64,000 nt of DNA from Pseudobdellovibrionaceae bacterium (GTDB lineage: Bacteria; Bdellovibrionota; Bdellovibrionia; Bdellovibrionales; Bdellovibrionaceae), in the NCBI GenBank assembly GCA_022843825.1, contig JALHMX010000002.1, positions 1 to 64,000 of the forward strand. The letters run 5' to 3'. Under the pieces are notes generated by a model. That model searched no databases, was not told where the DNA came from, and saw only the letters and a list, made by a program, of their open reading frames with translations. Positions 13,634-25,538 of the stretch are shown here, in pieces. Positions within the stretch are counted from its first letter, which is position 1; every line of letters begins with the position of its first letter. Both the position numbers and the translations under genes were made by a program.

Positions 13634-13761
13634 GTGTTTTTTTGAAGATCAGCCGCTTTGTCCAGGCTGTCTGCCTCAAGTTAAGACGGATTCTACCGAT
13701 AAGATAACAGTTAAACAATTGTTTTAAGTCAAAAATCGGGTCATTTTGGCGGGGGTCAAAA

Positions 13762-15760: not shown

Positions 15761-16186
15761 ATGGAACAAGAACAACAAGAACGAAAAGATGTAGGCTATA
15801 AAAAAAGTGTAACACATAAAGTGACGGACAAAATGGTCCATCAGTTTGCCGAGATGTCTGGCGACTACAATCCGATTCATCTGGATGATGACTATGCTTC
15901 TAAAACTATTTTTAAAAAACGCATCGCACACGGTATGATTTTAGGGGCATTAGTTTCTCGTTATTTAAATGAAACTATTGGCTCCGGTGGAATTTATTTG
16001 GCCCAAACCCTTAAGTTTGTAAAACCTGTTTATATCGACGATGAAGTCACATTCGATTTTGAAGTCACCAAGCTTCACAAAGCGCGCGGCTTCGGAACTA
16101 TCGAAACCAAAGCTCGTAACCAAAATAATGAGGTTGTTCTTAAGGGCGAGGCCACCATTATGATGGATTACGGTGTAAAAGCTTAA
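15761..16186 (+). CDS. MaoC-family (R)-specific enoyl-CoA hydratase
   Basis: A 141-residue hot-dog-fold protein. The catalytic pair D35 and H40 lie in GDYNPIHLDDDYA, followed by KKRIAHGMILGAL, the standard R-hydratase signature (PhaJ-like). It hydrates trans-2-enoyl-CoA or a related acyl thioester. The last 21 bases, encoding DYGVKA and the stop, occur again at 21496-21516 on the far side of the metal-efflux operon. Confidence 0.9.
   Translation: MEQEQQERKDVGYKKSVTHKVTDKMVHQFAEMSGDYNPIHLDDDYASKTIFKKRIAHGMILGALVSRYLNETIGSGGIYLAQTLKFVKPVYIDDEVTFDFEVTKLHKARGFGTIETKARNQNNEVVLKGEATIMMDYGVKA
16166..16186 (+). repeat. Direct repeat, left copy (3' end of MaoC gene)
   Basis: Twenty-one bases (starting GATTACGG, ending AAGCTTAA) are identical to 21496-21516. 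The match extends five bases further left (16161-16165) with one mismatch. It includes the MaoC stop codon. Together with the right copy it brackets the whole four-gene metal-efflux operon. Confidence 0.85.
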
Positions 16187-16247
16187 AATCATGAGCTTTC
16201 TAACGAAACTATTCTTGTTCCAGGTCCATTATACAGGACTGAAGCGG

Positions 16248-17507
16248 TTACTGGCCTAGCTTAAAAAATACATGAGCTTTAGCCAATTGAAAATCACGAA
16301 TAATTTCCAAACGTTTTAATTGGTTATCAAAATATCGCTCTGAGGCGCCTAACACGTCCGGAGAGTTTTTTACACCACGAGAATACTCTGACTGAGTTAG
16401 TTTATAATATTTTTCAGCGCGTTCGATATTGCTTTCGGCATCATGAATTTGACTGTGTTGAAATTTAAGGTCTTCAATTTCGTTAAGTGCATCAACCCCT
16501 ATTTCTTTTCGCTTTAAATTCGCCAGTTTCCGGGCTGCGGCAGATTCTTTAGAAAGTGCAGCTCCCTCACGGTGCGAATTTAAACCACTGAAAAGATCAA
16601 CAGTCATTTTTAACCCATAAAGTGTTTCAGATTTCGTTTGATCAGAAACAATCTCCGTTTCAGATTCAGGGCGCTCTTTAAAGGTGTTGTGAGCAGCAAA
16701 GGCTTCTACCGAGGGCCACCAACCCCGTGAACTTTTCTTCGCTAAGACATCTTTTTTGCGACTTTCAAGTTCGACTTCTTTAATCAAAAAATCATAAGCT
16801 TTGGTATCAATCTTAAGATTTGAAATAAAATCATGATCATGATCCAAATTAGTTGGAAAAATTAGATGAGTTTTTTCATCTAAGTCGGTCATTACTCTGA
16901 AATTTCTTTTTAAGGCGTCCATTTTTAGTTTCGATGCCGATAGATCACGTTTCAAATCGACATCTTTCATTTCAAATTCGATGCGATCAGAAGAAGTTGC
17001 GACACCGCTGCGAATTCGCCGTGCTGCCGCATTAAGATTTTGCCCATTTATCTTAAGCATAGATTCAAGGAGTACTATTTTTTCCTGAGTATAAACTATC
17101 TCCCAGTAAAGTTGACGTAGGGATTGAAGTTCTTCAGCGTTGATACGAAGAGCTTCATTAGACTTTGCTTGATAATCAATAGTGCGATATTCAGATTCCA
17201 GCCAATCACGACTGCCATTGAAAAGATTTAAACTGATCTCTGCTCCGGAGGCAGGTTGCTCTCGCCAGTCGCGGCTTTCAATTTTATAATTTTCTAAGCG
17301 TCCATACACCATTAGCTTTGGTAAAAAAGATCGCCATAAGTTTCCTTGGCGTAAGTCAGCAGCTTCTTTTTCTAGAAGGGCGGCTTGAATCTTCTGACTT
17401 CTGGTTTCAAGCAGGTGATTGAGTTCATTAAAGTTAACAGAGATTTTTTCCTGAGCTATGGCGGTGCCGGCCAAAAGCAAAGTGAAAATAAGTGATAATA
17501 TAAACAT
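16248..17507 (-). CDS. TolC-family outer-membrane efflux protein
   Basis: A 419-residue outer-membrane factor with a signal peptide (to IAQ, about residue 18) and long amphipathic helices in two similar halves, typical of TolC/CusC. A TTG at 17522 is rejected because the ATG at 17507 has a GGAG site at the right distance and gives a proper signal peptide. It is the last gene of the metal-efflux operon and would form the outer-membrane exit duct for the RND pump. Confidence 0.85.
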   Translation of the reverse strand: MFILSLIFTLLLAGTAIAQEKISVNFNELNHLLETRSQKIQAALLEKEAADLRQGNLWRSFLPKLMVYGRLENYKIESRDWREQPASGAEISLNLFNGSRDWLESEYRTIDYQAKSNEALRINAEELQSLRQLYWEIVYTQEKIVLLESMLKINGQNLNAAARRIRSGVATSSDRIEFEMKDVDLKRDLSASKLKMDALKRNFRVMTDLDEKTHLIFPTNLDHDHDFISNLKIDTKAYDFLIKEVELESRKKDVLAKKSSRGWWPSVEAFAAHNTFKERPESETEIVSDQTKSETLYGLKMTVDLFSGLNSHREGAALSKESAAARKLANLKRKEIGVDALNEIEDLKFQHSQIHDAESNIERAEKYYKLTQSEYSRGVKNSPDVLGASERYFDNQLKRLEIIRDFQLAKAHVFFKLGQ

Positions 17508-17522
17508 GAAGTTCTCCGGCAA

Positions 17523-17942
17523 TTATTTTTTAGGTTCAATTGTGTACGTCAGCTTATCGCTGTGTACCTCTTTGGGATCTTTGATGGTTAAAATTAAAGT
17601 GTAGCGATGCGTATTATTCGCATCATAAGTCCCTTCAAAGTGAGTGTCTTTGGATATTAAAGGTAAGCTGACTTGCTTCTTAGTTCGCGGTAATTGAGTC
17701 ATAGCTGTTACTGTATACGACTTAATTGCTTCAGGTTTCATGTCTTGGTTGTAAAAATAAATTTTAAGTTCTTTACCGCGGCCCACAACTTCGATGTGCA
17801 CATTCTCTAAAGATTTAATGATTCCGCCTTTTGGAGCAGCCACCCCTGTTGGTGCATCGTGATCATGGCCTTCGTGAGCAAAAGCCGAAAGTGAGAATAT
17901 AGAACTTAGGCCTAAAATTAACAAGAGCGCAGTTTTTTTCAT
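17523..17942 (-). CDS. His-rich periplasmic protein of the metal-efflux operon
   Basis: A 139-residue secreted protein: signal peptide, then HEGHDHD (about 23-29), a likely metal-binding segment, then a compact beta-rich domain (GVAAPKGGIIKSLENVHIEV onward). That domain resembles the N-terminal extension found on some CzcB-type adaptor proteins, but the hairpin and lipoyl domains that make an adaptor are absent. It overlaps the pump gene by 4 bases. A periplasmic metal carrier is the best guess. Confidence 0.7.
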   Translation of the reverse strand: MKKTALLLILGLSSIFSLSAFAHEGHDHDAPTGVAAPKGGIIKSLENVHIEVVGRGKELKIYFYNQDMKPEAIKSYTVTAMTQLPRTKKQVSLPLISKDTHFEGTYDANNTHRYTLILTIKDPKEVHSDKLTYTIEPKK

Positions 17943-20900
17943 AGGATTTCCTTTTCTGTGTTTTGGTTAACATATTCTTCCGCTGATTTTTTACCGAAAA
18001 AATAAAATAGGGTTGGGGTCACAATAATATCTAAAAGTGTCGAGCTGATAAGCCCTCCGACGATAACTACGGCGACAGGATGAAGGACTTCGCTTCCGGG
18101 TTGTCCCTTGGCAAAGACTAAAGGGAGAAGCGCTAAAGACGTTACACAAGCTGTCATCATTACAGGCACTAAACGTTCTTGAGAGCCGCGAATGATCATC
18201 TCGCGCGAGAATTTTTCTCCTTCATGTTTCATTAGATGCAGATAATGTGAGATCATCATTATTCCATTCCGCGACGCTACCCCACATAAGGTGATAAAGC
18301 CTACAAGGCTGGCCACGGTAATAGTGCGTTCGGCAATAAACAGTAAAACTATGCCACCAATGAAAGCCAACGGTATTGTGGCCATGATTTGCAGGACGAT
18401 GGCTTTAGATCTAAAATGAGAAAATAAAAGTAAAGCAATGCCAATAAGCGAAATAGCTCCGAAAATTAAAATTTTGCGCGTAGCCGCTTGCTGGCTTTCA
18501 AACTGTCCACCGTAAACGACATAGTAACCTTCAGGTAGTTGTACTTTTTCTTTAACGCGATTTTGTATTTCAGAAACTAAACTTCCTAAATCTCTACCAC
18601 TGACATTTCCGCTGATCACAATACGGCGTTGATTATTCTCGCGGTTAATTTCATTAGGTCCGGTAGTCTCATAGACATCTGCCACATCTTTTAATAAAAT
18701 TTTTCGTCCATCGGGCCGAATCTTCAAAACTGTATTTTCCATGTCCTCCATTGATCCCCGAGATTTTTTGTCAAACTGGAAGAACACATCATAAATACGG
18801 GTTTCTTCAAGAATTTGAGCCACTGCTTCGCCGTTGAAAGCGGTTTCCAGCAATTGAGTAATTTCACCGGCGCTTAAACCAAAGCGAGCAGCTTCTTCGC
18901 GTAAAACGTGAATTTTTACCTGCGGAATAAGCCCTTGCTGTTCAATTCGAAGATCGACTAATCCTGGAACATCTTTAATGGCGGCCTCGAGTTCGATGGA
19001 TTTTTCTCGTAAAGTTGTTAGATCTGGTCCAAAAATTTTAATGGCTAAAGCGGCACTGACGCCTGAAAGCATATGATCAATCAAATGAGAGATAGGTTGT
19101 CCCACATTAATTCCAGCTTGGGGAAACTCAGTTTTTAGTTTACCGCGAATTTCATTTAAGACCACTTCACGGGGGCGTCCCTTTTCTTTGAAGTCTACAT
19201 CGATTTCGCTGATATTAACTCCAGCGGCGTGCTCGTCCAGTTCGGCGCGACCGGTTCGTCGTGAAACGGATTTAATTTCTGGAGTTGCCAGCATAATTTC
19301 TTCAGCGCGCGCGCCCATTTTATTAGACTCAGTCAAGCTTATACCAGGTAAGGCAGCCACCGAAATCATCGCTGTACCTTCGTTAAACTTAGGCAGAAAA
19401 TCTCGCCCCATAAAAGGGAGCAATAGAAGGGATATTAGTAATATAATTGATGAAGTCACCAACACCAGTTTAGATCTTGGTAAGGCCCACACCAAAATAT
19501 TTTGATCCATTTTTTTAAGATAAGCTACAAAGAGCGTGTCTTGGTGATTTTTTAGTTTTCCTTTTAAGAAATAAGAACACAAAACCGGTGTCACCGTTAA
19601 AGATACCACCAGAGAGGCTACTAAAGCCGTTAAATAAGCGATACCCAGGGGCGCAAACAATCGACCTTCTAAGCCTGTTAAATTAAATAAAGGCAAAAAA
19701 ACTAAGATAATAATTACTGTTGCTAAAACGATAGAATTTCTGACCTCACTGGAGGCCTCAAAAATAACTTTCAAAGTTGACCGTGGATTTACGCTTCGAG
19801 CATTTTCCCGCAGACGTCTAAAAACATTTTCAACGTCAACAATAGAATCATCCACTAATTCACCGATAGCTATGGCTAATCCACCCAGAGTCATCGTATT
19901 GATATTTAATCCAAAAAATTTAAATATAATGGCCGTGGCTAAAAACGAAAGTGGAATGGCCGTAAGGGTAATCACTGACATACGCAAATTAGCTAGAAAA
20001 ATAAATAACACAACGAAAACTAATATCGTTCCCCATTGAAGTTTCCCAAAAATTCCGGATATAGAAGCTTTGATAAAATCCGCCTGTTTAAATACATCTG
20101 GATTCACGATAACGTTTACGGGAAGACTGGGGCGAAGCTCATTAATAGCTTTAGCAATATTCTCAGATATTAAAACCGTATCAGCTGTGGGTTGTTTAAG
20201 TACGGTCATAATAACCGCGGGCTTTCCGTTAAAGCTGCCATCCCCGCGTTTTAGTCGTGGGGCAGCTGCAACCTCCGCAATATCTTGTATAAGTACAGGA
20301 CGACCAAAATGCAGACCAACCAAGGTTTTTTTAATATCGTCGATACCATCCACAACTCCGATATTTCGGACTAAAAACTCTCGTCCATCTTTTTCTAAAA
20401 AACCGCCGGTGGTGTTTTGACTGATCTGGGAAATTTGTTTATCCACCTGCTCGATCGAAAGTTGATACTGATTCATTTTTTCTGCAGAGACCATGATTTG
20501 GTATTGCTTAAGTCCTCCGCCAATGGAAATCACTTGTGAGACTCCCGGAATTGTCATAAGGCGTGGGCGAATAATCCATTCGGCAATATTTCGCAACTCC
20601 ATAGGATCGGTGCTATTGTCTTCAGTGGTGACGGCGATCTGTTGAATTTGTCCCATCAAAGACCCGATGGGGCCCATCATCGGCCGAATGTCTTTTGGCA
20701 AAAGTTCTTGAGTTAAATTCAACTTTTCTTGAACCAGTTGCCGGTTTCGATAAATATCAGATCCCCATTCGAACTCTAGATAAATAACCGACAACCCAAT
20801 GCCGGACTGTGACCTCACACGCTCAATTCCCGGTAAGCCATTTAAATAATTTTCAATGGGTAAGGTCACGCGGGTCTCAACCTCTTCTGGCGCCATCCCA

Positions 20901-21061
20901 TGAGCTTCAGTTAAAATAGTAACTGTGGGTTTGGTGATATCTGGAAAGACATCAATGGATAAATCTTTGACTGTCAGTGCACCGTAAACAATGACCATCG
21001 CGGAAATAGCCACGACCAATAGTCTGTTGTTTAAGGCGTATCGAATAATAGCATTTAACAA
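17939..21061 (-). CDS. Heavy-metal RND efflux pump, CzcA/CusA family
   Basis: A 1040-residue inner-membrane proton/metal antiporter with the RND layout: a first membrane helix, large periplasmic loops at about 30-330 and 560-860, and 12 helices in total. The TM4 segment AIAIGELVDDSIVDVENVF carries the acidic relay residues of the heavy-metal (HME) subfamily. The exact metal (Cu/Ag versus Co/Zn/Cd) cannot be told. The start is TTG at 21061, five bases after an AAGGAGG site; the site lies in a short hairpin (AATCCT/AGGATT, 21063-21079) that could limit translation. Confidence 0.92.
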   Translation of the reverse strand: MLNAIIRYALNNRLLVVAISAMVIVYGALTVKDLSIDVFPDITKPTVTILTEAHGMAPEEVETRVTLPIENYLNGLPGIERVRSQSGIGLSVIYLEFEWGSDIYRNRQLVQEKLNLTQELLPKDIRPMMGPIGSLMGQIQQIAVTTEDNSTDPMELRNIAEWIIRPRLMTIPGVSQVISIGGGLKQYQIMVSAEKMNQYQLSIEQVDKQISQISQNTTGGFLEKDGREFLVRNIGVVDGIDDIKKTLVGLHFGRPVLIQDIAEVAAAPRLKRGDGSFNGKPAVIMTVLKQPTADTVLISENIAKAINELRPSLPVNVIVNPDVFKQADFIKASISGIFGKLQWGTILVFVVLFIFLANLRMSVITLTAIPLSFLATAIIFKFFGLNINTMTLGGLAIAIGELVDDSIVDVENVFRRLRENARSVNPRSTLKVIFEASSEVRNSIVLATVIIILVFLPLFNLTGLEGRLFAPLGIAYLTALVASLVVSLTVTPVLCSYFLKGKLKNHQDTLFVAYLKKMDQNILVWALPRSKLVLVTSSIILLISLLLLPFMGRDFLPKFNEGTAMISVAALPGISLTESNKMGARAEEIMLATPEIKSVSRRTGRAELDEHAAGVNISEIDVDFKEKGRPREVVLNEIRGKLKTEFPQAGINVGQPISHLIDHMLSGVSAALAIKIFGPDLTTLREKSIELEAAIKDVPGLVDLRIEQQGLIPQVKIHVLREEAARFGLSAGEITQLLETAFNGEAVAQILEETRIYDVFFQFDKKSRGSMEDMENTVLKIRPDGRKILLKDVADVYETTGPNEINRENNQRRIVISGNVSGRDLGSLVSEIQNRVKEKVQLPEGYYVVYGGQFESQQAATRKILIFGAISLIGIALLLFSHFRSKAIVLQIMATIPLAFIGGIVLLFIAERTITVASLVGFITLCGVASRNGIMMISHYLHLMKHEGEKFSREMIIRGSQERLVPVMMTACVTSLALLPLVFAKGQPGSEVLHPVAVVIVGGLISSTLLDIIVTPTLFYFFGKKSAEEYVNQNTEKEIL

Positions 21062-21121
21062 AGAATCCTCCTTAAGGATTTTAGCGAGCTAATACTTAAA
21101 AATAATTTTTCTAGATTATGA

Positions 21122-21406
21122 CTATATAATCGGAGGTCGAAAGAGCTGAGAGCTAAAAGAATAAAACAAATGCGAATTCATAAAATGAAATTTTTGAGTA
21201 TCAAATAAAAGCGTAGGAGTAGGAGTTTCCGAAAATATAACTGCCAGGTGTGTTATATGACAACGATGACAATCTTCATTGCTATTATCGGAACAGTCTG
21301 CAGTGGATTCACAATGAGTTTCTAAAGCTAATAAATCATGAATCCCGGGTGCGACCAGCACAGTAAGACCAATAAGAACAAAGAAAACAGCTAAAAACTT
21401 TTTCAT
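21122..21406 (-). CDS. Small Cys/His-rich exported protein
   Basis: A 94-residue product with an N-terminal hydrophobic segment (MKKFLAVFFVLIGLTVLVAPG), then HCESTADCSDNSNEDCHRCH, four Cys and three His in about 25 residues, and a C terminus ending FRPPII. Small proteins of this kind commonly precede RND metal pumps and are annotated as unknown. Metal sensing or binding is plausible. The start at 21406 is preferred over 21445 because it begins a normal signal sequence. It leads the efflux operon. Confidence 0.65.
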   Translation of the reverse strand: MKKFLAVFFVLIGLTVLVAPGIHDLLALETHCESTADCSDNSNEDCHRCHITHLAVIFSETPTPTLLFDTQKFHFMNSHLFYSFSSQLFRPPII

Positions 21407-21495
21407 GAATGAGGCCAGTCTGAACTTTCCTGGCACGCTCGGCAAGTAGCTTTTAATTTAAACAAGGCGTCAAGCTGCTTATGTTGGATCTGATC

Positions 21496-21516
21496 GATTA
21501 CGGTGTAAAAGCTTAA
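21496..21516 (+). repeat. Direct repeat, right copy
   Basis: Identical over 21 bases to the end of the MaoC gene (16166-16186). In the same frame it reads DYGVKA-stop, but no MaoC coding sequence precedes it. It lies 90 bases upstream of the first gene of the efflux operon, outside that operon. Confidence 0.85.
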
Positions 21517-21611: not shown

Positions 21612-22037
21612 ATGAATAAGGTATTATTTTTATTAACGACTTTAGTGTTAACTGCGGCGCAAGCTAATGAGTTAAATTGTAAATCGAAGAATCCACTTAT
21701 AACTAAAGAAAAAGATATGGCCGTAACTGAAGTGAAGTTTAGATCTTCAGATCGTCTTCAGGCGGGTTATTTATTAGATATGGATGTTAAATATATATTT
21801 CAATTAGCAGGACCTGAGTCAGCAATAACTATAGATATGTCGGGAAAATGTATTTCTGCTGAGAATCAGCCCGGATTGCGTTGCTTTGCGTTTACAGGGA
21901 CTAATTATAACTTTTGGAATGTGCAAATTCGACCAGATGTTTGGCGCAGTGATAAGGCGTTAGTTAAAATGACTTTATCCGATGAAGACAAATTACCATT
22001 GGATAATATTTATGTAGATGAGTTAGAGTGCGAATAA
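21612..22037 (+). CDS. Secreted protein of unknown function
   Basis: A 141-residue product with a signal peptide (to ANA-like cleavage near residue 19) and four Cys in the mature domain. The rest is beta-rich with no recognised motif. The ATG has an AAAGGAG site. Its 3' end overlaps the start of the following lipoprotein gene by 10 bases, so the two are probably translated together. Confidence 0.7.
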   Translation: MNKVLFLLTTLVLTAAQANELNCKSKNPLITKEKDMAVTEVKFRSSDRLQAGYLLDMDVKYIFQLAGPESAITIDMSGKCISAENQPGLRCFAFTGTNYNFWNVQIRPDVWRSDKALVKMTLSDEDKLPLDNIYVDELECE

Positions 22038-23182
22038 ATCTATTAGCTCTCATTACAGCGGTCTTATTAAGCGGTTGCGGCGGCGGTTCAAGCGCGCCCA
22101 GCGAACTTGTCGGTAAACATGATGCCAACGCAGCGTCTTGTTTATACGGCTTTAATGAGGGTGAGATGGCGCCGTCTTCGTTACCGGCACCAAATATACA
22201 ATCTGCAGCTTTTAATAAGCCCTATGACCAGAACTTGTTTAATTCAGTAGGGAGTGCGAGCGGGGCGGAAGTCTTGCGTTTTTCTGCGCTGACAGGTGTG
22301 ACCTTTTATAAAGTTGATAAGCGAAAAAATAAGACAATAGGATGTTTGTTTACTGGAACGCTGCCTAATGCGCCAACTTTAATTGAAAAAAAGTTCCGTG
22401 AAATAGAAGGGGATACGCAGTCGGAAGACCCAGACTCGTCACTTTTGGGAATCTATATGCCAAGTGAAACAGTCCAAAGTCTTACAGATTTTGCATATTC
22501 AGAAAATATGATAGTGGTTTTGAACGATTCGGAAAAATACACCATGGTTCACGAGTTCATGCATCACCTTTTTAAACTTGGAAAAAAAGAATCGGATGGA
22601 ATGATTAAAAACAGACTTATTAGATCATTTGAACTTTATGAGGCTGCAGAAGAAAAATTTAAATCGAATGAAACTGCAGCCAACCTGATCCATTTTTCGA
22701 CTCAGTTAGAGCGATTAGTCATAGACCTAATTCCTTTTTTAAGATCATTTCATCTTGAAGAAGTTGCTTTAGAGACGGAAATGTATAAACACTATTCTCG
22801 TGGTAAGCTAAGATACATTAGTGAAGACAGTCGTCGGAACGGCGATTGGTATATTACCAGCTCAGGAGAGTCGACTCAAAACCTGATCAAAGAATTAAAG
22901 ATTACAAATAATTTAGTTCTGATATCTAATAAAGCACGCATGCTAGATCTGACTGATTTAGATAAAGCAAGTGTTTTAGAAAGCACAGATAAAGCGAACC
23001 AACTTATTTCTAATGTGAATAGTGAATTGAATACTCTTATTCAGCAGGCCCATGCGCGATTACAAAAAAGCAACTTTAGAAGAACCCGTAGTGGATTGGT
23101 AGCAAGTTCATCGTCGCCTCATGAAGGCTGTGCACATCGACGACAGGCCGCGCAGTTTGTTCGAGAAATTCTAAAAAAATAG
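22028..23182 (+). CDS. Lipoprotein with HExxH zinc-protease motif
   Basis: A 384-residue protein with a GTG start inside the previous gene, a signal with lipobox LLSGC (Cys17) and a Gly/Ser linker. VHEFMHHLF holds an HExxH motif at 175-179, typical of zinc metallopeptidases; E197/E203 or E205 in the following helix could be the third ligand. The C-terminal half is helical with heptad character. I do not recognise the family. It could be a predator surface protease, but the substrate is unknown. Confidence 0.72.
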   Translation: MRINLLALITAVLLSGCGGGSSAPSELVGKHDANAASCLYGFNEGEMAPSSLPAPNIQSAAFNKPYDQNLFNSVGSASGAEVLRFSALTGVTFYKVDKRKNKTIGCLFTGTLPNAPTLIEKKFREIEGDTQSEDPDSSLLGIYMPSETVQSLTDFAYSENMIVVLNDSEKYTMVHEFMHHLFKLGKKESDGMIKNRLIRSFELYEAAEEKFKSNETAANLIHFSTQLERLVIDLIPFLRSFHLEEVALETEMYKHYSRGKLRYISEDSRRNGDWYITSSGESTQNLIKELKITNNLVLISNKARMLDLTDLDKASVLESTDKANQLISNVNSELNTLIQQAHARLQKSNFRRTRSGLVASSSSPHEGCAHRRQAAQFVREILKK

Positions 23183-23229: not shown

Positions 23230-23259
23230 ACTCTAAAGCGAATATATTCGCTTTAGAGT
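23230..23259. repeat. 30-bp perfect palindrome between lipoprotein and carboxypeptidase genes
   Basis: The half-site ACTCTAAAGCGAATA is followed directly by its reverse complement, without a loop and without a following T-run. A second inverted repeat, CATTCCC/GGGAATG (23274-23294), follows. These could be an operator, a terminator working in both directions, or a processing site. Confidence 0.7.
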
Positions 23260-24428: not shown

Positions 24429-25538
24429 ATGAAAAAACATTTTTTTAAAATACTAATAGTAGGATTATTAATCCACATATCGAATGCGATGGCCATGTCG
24501 GATTTAGAGTTAGCCATTGATGAGCATAATCAAACAATGACATCATCAGAGTTTTCTCATTTAACCGATGAACAGTACGAGCAACTCATGAGTATTCGCG
24601 AGTCTGGTGGAGATGTTTTTAACGAGTACATTCCTCAGGTTTCTACAATTAATGAAAAACCATTGTCGGTAGTAGAGATGGAGCAAATCAAAGAAATTTC
24701 GGCTATTACTAGTATTGCAGAACTACAAGCCGACGCACAAAAAAGAACTCAAGGCCGCGGTAAGTGGGCTTATCACCTAGTTTATCTAGGTAATGATGGA
24801 AGTCGTGTAGAGCTATCGAGTTCTCGAATAAATGAACAAGTACGTCCCGCCTCAACGTTGAAAGTTATATCTAGCTATCTGGCATTTACCGCAGGGACTT
24901 ACCCCTTACTGAAAATGAGCGACATGCTTCATCGCAGTGATAATGGCATGGCCGATGAAGCTTTTCGAACTGTTTCCCGTAGTAAGTCTGCCTACGTTTT
25001 ACCTGCCGATCACTACGCTCAATCCCTTATCGGGTACAAAATTCGTGATGGCGCTGCTGGCATTAGACGTGTCATTGACAAAGATATTGCGCGCAGTTGT
25101 GGTATTGCGAAAGACATGTATTCAACTCTTCAGGACTCTGTAAAGTTTCATATTATAAATGGAAGTGGGCTGCAGGACTCCGCTGTTGACAAGGGAAATG
25201 CCGTTAGCAAAGTAACTGCTCGTTTTCAGACGGACTTACTTGAAAAAATTGCTCGTTCGTCTCGGTATAATGAATACAAAAGGCTATTAGCTCAGCCTGG
25301 ACAAAGCGGCACATTGCTGAGAAGACTGACGCAAACAGATAAAATGGGCAAGGTCTATGCAAAAACAGGAACCCTTGCCGCAGTGAAAGCATTAGCAGGT
25401 TTTGTTGATACCAAGAAGGGTAAACTGATTTTCTCGATAATTGGCGATGAATTGACGATAAGTCCATCGTTAGCTTCAGCTGAAACTGATAATATCGTAT
25501 TTCAACACGTAAAATATCTAACTAACCGAGGGCTATAG
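24429..25538 (+). CDS. Minimal PBP4-type D-alanyl-D-alanine carboxypeptidase (DacB-like), copy 2
   Basis: A 369-residue paralog of the gene just before it, starting immediately after its stop with no clear ribosome site, so translation is probably coupled. It keeps SxxK (S142-TL-K145), SxN (S170-D-N172) and KTG (312-314) at the same close spacing and the same N-terminal module (SIRESGGDVFNEYIPQ near 55-70). A signal peptide is present. Conserved active sites in both copies argue for two working enzymes with divided roles, not a decaying duplicate. Confidence 0.88.
   Translation: MKKHFFKILIVGLLIHISNAMAMSDLELAIDEHNQTMTSSEFSHLTDEQYEQLMSIRESGGDVFNEYIPQVSTINEKPLSVVEMEQIKEISAITSIAELQADAQKRTQGRGKWAYHLVYLGNDGSRVELSSSRINEQVRPASTLKVISSYLAFTAGTYPLLKMSDMLHRSDNGMADEAFRTVSRSKSAYVLPADHYAQSLIGYKIRDGAAGIRRVIDKDIARSCGIAKDMYSTLQDSVKFHIINGSGLQDSAVDKGNAVSKVTARFQTDLLEKIARSSRYNEYKRLLAQPGQSGTLLRRLTQTDKMGKVYAKTGTLAAVKALAGFVDTKKGKLIFSIIGDELTISPSLASAETDNIVFQHVKYLTNRGL

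Follow-up and report, generated by a model that had tools for sequence, protein, structure and literature searches.

The efflux operon and its bracketing repeat

The locus lies in a 64-kb window, by which we mean the whole stretch of DNA analysed, from a genome of a Bdellovibrio-like genus (2.4 Mb, 33 contigs, 99.5% complete). A maoC-like dehydratase gene (15761 to 16186, plus strand; Pfam PF01575, E 3e-25) ends in the left copy of a 21-base direct repeat, GATTACGGTGTAAAAGCTTAA, and this att-like copy (16166 to 16186, plus strand) stops on the final base of the maoC stop codon (16186), so that the gene is complete with its stop. An exact second copy, att-like and corresponding to a displaced maoC end, lies in the same direction at 21496 to 21516, and two host-side genes follow it on the plus strand (21612 to 23182). 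When one mismatch is allowed, the repeat extends to 26 bases (16161 to 16186 and 21491 to 21516). Both pairs of coordinates in a preliminary description of this DNA were thus reproduced, and the bracketing of an operon by the repeat is confirmed.

The preliminary description had also put the repeat beyond chance, and randomization bore this out: no exact direct repeat longer than 19 bases arose in 300 Markov-3 versions of the window. Randomized sequence of the same genome (6 draws of 0.81 Mb each) contained zero repeats of at least 20 bases within 30 kb. With up to three mismatches, the 21-base sequence occurs only twice in the 64-kb window, against an expectation of 0 from 100 dinucleotide shuffles. 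It had further been proposed that the same repeat be sought around other cassettes, and no further copies came to light: the 2.4-Mb genome contains the 17-base core exactly at these two places only, and a repeated maoC end was absent from 12 genus relatives. We considered a one-mismatch 17-mer on another contig as a third copy and rejected it as an intergenic chance match. Two further features of the window were recorded. A perfect 30-base palindrome, ACTCTAAAGCGAATATATTCGCTTTAGAGT, occupies positions 23230 to 23259, between the gene at 22028 and a D-Ala-D-Ala carboxypeptidase-like gene; and an 18-base perfect inverted match, near the limit of chance, joins positions 13652 to 13669 (the tonB–pilZ intergenic region) to positions 25293 to 25310 (in a carboxypeptidase-like gene).

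Between the two copies lies a putative inserted cassette of 5,309 bases (16187 to 21495), supported as an insertion by the absence of this segment after maoC in relatives and by the phylogeny of its resistance–nodulation–division (RND) pump. Its four genes are all on the minus strand. The first gene of the operon (21122 to 21445, with an ATG at 21406) encodes a small secreted Cys/His protein of 94–107 amino acids, for which family searches gave zero matches; the operons of most relatives have a protein of similar features at this position, and such proteins share a signal peptide, a Cys/His motif and often a C-terminal GPFQPPR-like end. The second (17939 to 21061) encodes a heavy-metal RND pump of the CusA/CzcA type, which scores 815 bits against TIGR00914 (cut-off 701) and has CusA and ZneA as its best PDB matches. 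The third (17523 to 17942) encodes a secreted His-rich protein of 139 amino acids that is conserved in the operon across Bdellovibrionales, with 17 invariant columns in an alignment of 14 homologues, and that has zero matches in Pfam, NCBIfam and PHROG. It stands where one would look for a membrane-fusion gene in this RND operon. The fourth (16248 to 17522) encodes an outer-membrane efflux protein (OEP) of the OEP/TolC type (PF02321, E 7e-26).

The operon contains no membrane-fusion (adaptor) gene, and no match to RND_mfp above the cut-off was found in the genome; the arrangement is therefore not that of a CusCBA/CzcCBA tripartite system, in which such a gene is present. The earlier account of the interval as holding a four-gene minus-strand efflux operon and nothing else stands as to content, with the amendment that two of the four genes have no known family and that the membrane-fusion gene is absent. 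Its remark that no integrase lies inside also holds: none of the four genes matched a recombinase, and no genes for integration or transfer were found inside the cassette. The GC content of the operon (about 0.40–0.43) is like that of its surroundings. The operon presumably still works.

The maoC locus in relatives and the origin of the operon

We compared the locus with those of 12 genus relatives that have an identified maoC or maoC-like locus; among these, the best match of one genome (G009) is distant and lies in a different gene context. The tonB–pilZ–phoH–maoC block is kept in the genus relatives and, where the assembly permits a view, is followed by lipB–lpd–aceF–lipA, with a few variable genes between. 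None of the 12 carries the operon after maoC; a finding that relatives share the operon at this place, which had been named in advance as evidence against insertion, was thus not made. No recombinase was found near maoC in 80 loci with flanks of up to 9 kb.

The closest relative, G011, has a maoC gene that is 86% identical and differs at 3 of the 21 repeat bases. Its maoC contig stops inside another gene, and a second contig starts in a homologue of the lipoprotein gene at 22028 and continues into lipB–lpd. Because this homologue adjoins lipB–lpd in G011, the genes to the right of the cassette were probably part of the former maoC–lipB interval, a placement that is deduced across two G011 contigs that are not joined. 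The right flank has no significant alignment to the sequence after maoC in G011 (an equal or higher score arose in 72 of 500 shuffles). The exact empty site that the preliminary description had suggested looking for, with maoC followed directly by the gene at 21612, was not found.

Thirteen other genomes of the order have these four genes in an identical arrangement (small protein, RND pump, 139-amino-acid protein, OEP), for the most part among different neighbours, and no flanking repeats were found around orthologous operons in 13 genomes. In the tree of RND pumps, the copy studied here groups with those of G003 (same genus), G016 (another genus) and G047 and G052 (another family), whereas housekeeping-type trees place its genome with G011, G007 and G001. 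Monophyly of the genus was rejected for the RND pump (p-AU 0.007, in a test performed once the first tree was known). The best RND matches in G001, G007 and G011 reach at most 58%. Both marks of horizontal acquisition are therefore found here, namely a gene tree in conflict with the relatives and absence from the sister species. This combination of a misplaced RND tree and sister species without this RND type points to an operon that was gained horizontally or else retained through very uneven losses.

One of the genomes that group with this RND pump, G052, encodes a tyrosine integrase and an excisionase-like gene (947 to 2095, L163/L258) 3.6 kb upstream of its orthologous operon. We considered this integrase as the missing vehicle and set it aside as only a lead: no att repeats bracket it, and the contig ends on that side.

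Gene-end scars elsewhere in the genome

We surveyed 1.21 Mb, half of the genome, read in stretches, for direct repeats of at least 20 bases within 50 kb, setting aside REP-like families, gene duplicates and internally repetitive genes. Isolated repeats were found in exactly five places, and each covers the 3′ end of a gene: tRNA-Ser, tRNA-Glu, tRNA-Phe, tRNA-Met and maoC, the last being the only protein gene. The REP-like palindromic repeats that were set aside have GGTGCCAGGCTAC or GGGGTCAGGCT cores and occur on contigs C5, C7, C9, C10, C18 and C1, several of them at gene 3′ ends. A 22-base repeat on C1 (147438 and 148390) was rejected as a scar, because it appears to reflect duplication within a gene family (two similar genes, flank identity 0.42).

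Two of the tRNA sites hold elements with recombinases. At tRNA-Ser(GCT), 34-base repeats enclose an integrative element of 7.7 kb (C11, 83344 to 91102) that encodes a tyrosine integrase, an HTH_17 excisionase-like protein and a phage-type (D5-type) primase. At tRNA-Glu, 37-base repeats enclose an element of 9.5 kb (C5, 25589 to 35133) with a divergent tyrosine recombinase (PF00589, below the cut-off) and a serine recombinase. The other two are small islets without an integrase. The tRNA-Phe islet (0.56 kb, 20-base repeat; C1, 31774 to 32355) carries a single gene for a 156-amino-acid, weakly DUF3592-like protein, and the exact 17-base tRNA-Phe end occurs twice in this genome and at most once in genus relatives. 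The tRNA-Met islet (2.2 kb, 23-base repeat; C3, 1040 to 3264) carries an alpha/beta hydrolase and a HigB-like/HTH pair.

Given that the four other gene-end repeats all lie at tRNAs, and that two of them enclose integrase-bearing elements, repeats of this kind are normally produced in this genome by site-specific integration at gene ends. This survey lends the insertion reading of the maoC repeat its strongest support. A recombinase is absent from three of the five scars (tRNA-Phe, tRNA-Met and maoC); this count, from half of the genome, suggests that gene-end islets without an integrase are common here.

Probable insertion at the maoC gene end and comparison with known systems

We consider it likely that site-specific recombination placed a horizontally acquired operon for heavy-metal efflux at the 3′ end of maoC. 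The preliminary description had read the segment as an integrated cassette with an att-like site at a gene end, and that reading gains support from the absence of the operon after maoC in the 12 relatives, the misplaced phylogeny, the duplicated gene end and the four tRNA scars. In the proposed mechanism, a circle carrying the operon and the 21-base site would recombine with the same site at the end of maoC, and insertion would leave maoC complete on the left and a displaced 21-base end on the right. The enzyme was presumably a tyrosine recombinase, and its gene either would have been lost from a larger element or would be encoded elsewhere and act in trans. The resident recombinases serve tRNA sites of unrelated sequence. 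If the operon did arrive in this way, a lineage of predatory bacteria can acquire a complete metal-resistance operon in one step, with a housekeeping gene left unharmed.

Other events might leave a similar trace. IS1202-type elements make long target duplications, of about 24–29 bases, and a staggered cut by a transposase on insertion of the operon could have duplicated 21–26 bases of maoC. Such a duplication would naturally make all 21 bases identical to those of the genome's own maoC, at a site where G011 differs at three bases; but the cassette contains no transposase, its inner ends have no terminal inverted repeats (at best 7 of 9 bases agree, and this with one end moved by 5), and the repeat stops precisely at the stop codon, as is frequent for att sites at gene ends. 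On this balance, target-site duplication is unlikely. We judge it equally unlikely, or a shade more so, that the operon was joined by illegitimate repair of a break, with a short piece of the maoC end copied into the right-hand junction as filler. That route requires no recombinase and suits a repeat that is short and exact, but random repair patches are not expected to be confined to gene ends, and all four other isolated repeats sit where att sites are classically found, at the 3′ end of a tRNA gene.

An error of assembly, in which a 21-base k-mer overlap wrongly joined the operon to the chromosome, is brought to mind by the 33 contigs and by the exact repeat length of 21, which is a common smallest k-mer in assembly. 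It would require the same 21-mer to have been misjoined twice, independently, however, and the operon fits its surroundings in GC content; the similar scars in this genome, moreover, are 20, 23, 34 and 37 bases long. We hold such an artefact to be very unlikely. Least credible of all, to the point of being extremely improbable, is that the right copy has no connection with maoC and, lying close to the operon promoter, came to resemble the maoC end by chance or functional convergence. The right copy does lie upstream of the first gene of the operon, but zero random windows reached a repeat of 20 bases, and the upstream regions of the orthologous operons, judged by eye, have no common motif there.

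Beyond insertion of the operon at maoC, we speculated that recombinases encoded elsewhere act in trans in this lineage to move very small cargo-only islets of 1–4 genes, free of recombinases, to gene 3′ ends, both of tRNAs and of proteins, in a cassette-like manner with no integron. This wider proposal is unlikely; were it true, this one genome would supply three cases of it, at maoC (the RND operon), at tRNA-Phe (0.56 kb) and at tRNA-Met (2.2 kb).

As a transporter, the pump of the maoC cassette is a clear member of the CusA/CzcA (TIGR00914) systems, from which the operon differs in having no membrane-fusion gene and, instead, a conserved 139-amino-acid protein of unassigned family. As an insertion, it has a close parallel in the Dehalococcoides islands that carry vcrABC, in which a single useful operon lies in the 3′ end of ssrA with a 20-base repeat of the ssrA end; those islands, however, use a tmRNA as target and many have a serine-integrase module (PMC3146451), whereas the cassette studied here sits at a protein gene and has no integrase.

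Another parallel is offered by integrative and mobilizable elements (IMEs). According to the relevant part of one account, their tyrosine integrases commonly act at the 3′ end of a tRNA or housekeeping gene, generating repeats of 8–60 bp and leaving the gene intact (PMC5704250). IMEs in the 3′ ends of guaA, rplL and rpmE likewise use the end of a protein gene as their site and restore it, but they encode their own tyrosine integrase, and maoC is not among the targets shown for them in that part of the source (PMC5704250). The maoC cassette encodes no integrase and is thus neither an IME nor an ICE as it stands. The same part of that account describes cis-mobilizable elements (CIMEs) as decayed ICEs or IMEs that keep attL and attR and have lost the genes for integration and transfer (PMC5704250). 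The maoC cassette agrees with this description in its direct, attL/attR-type repeats of a gene 3′ end around cargo, its intact target and its lack of integrase and transfer genes, and differs from CIMEs as described there in that no related integrase-bearing element was found at the same site in the 12 genus relatives or the 80 loci (PMC5704250). Taken together, these comparisons support a cassette that is CIME-like in anatomy and that may descend from an ICE or IME, and the maoC case is a fresh example of an already known kind of event.
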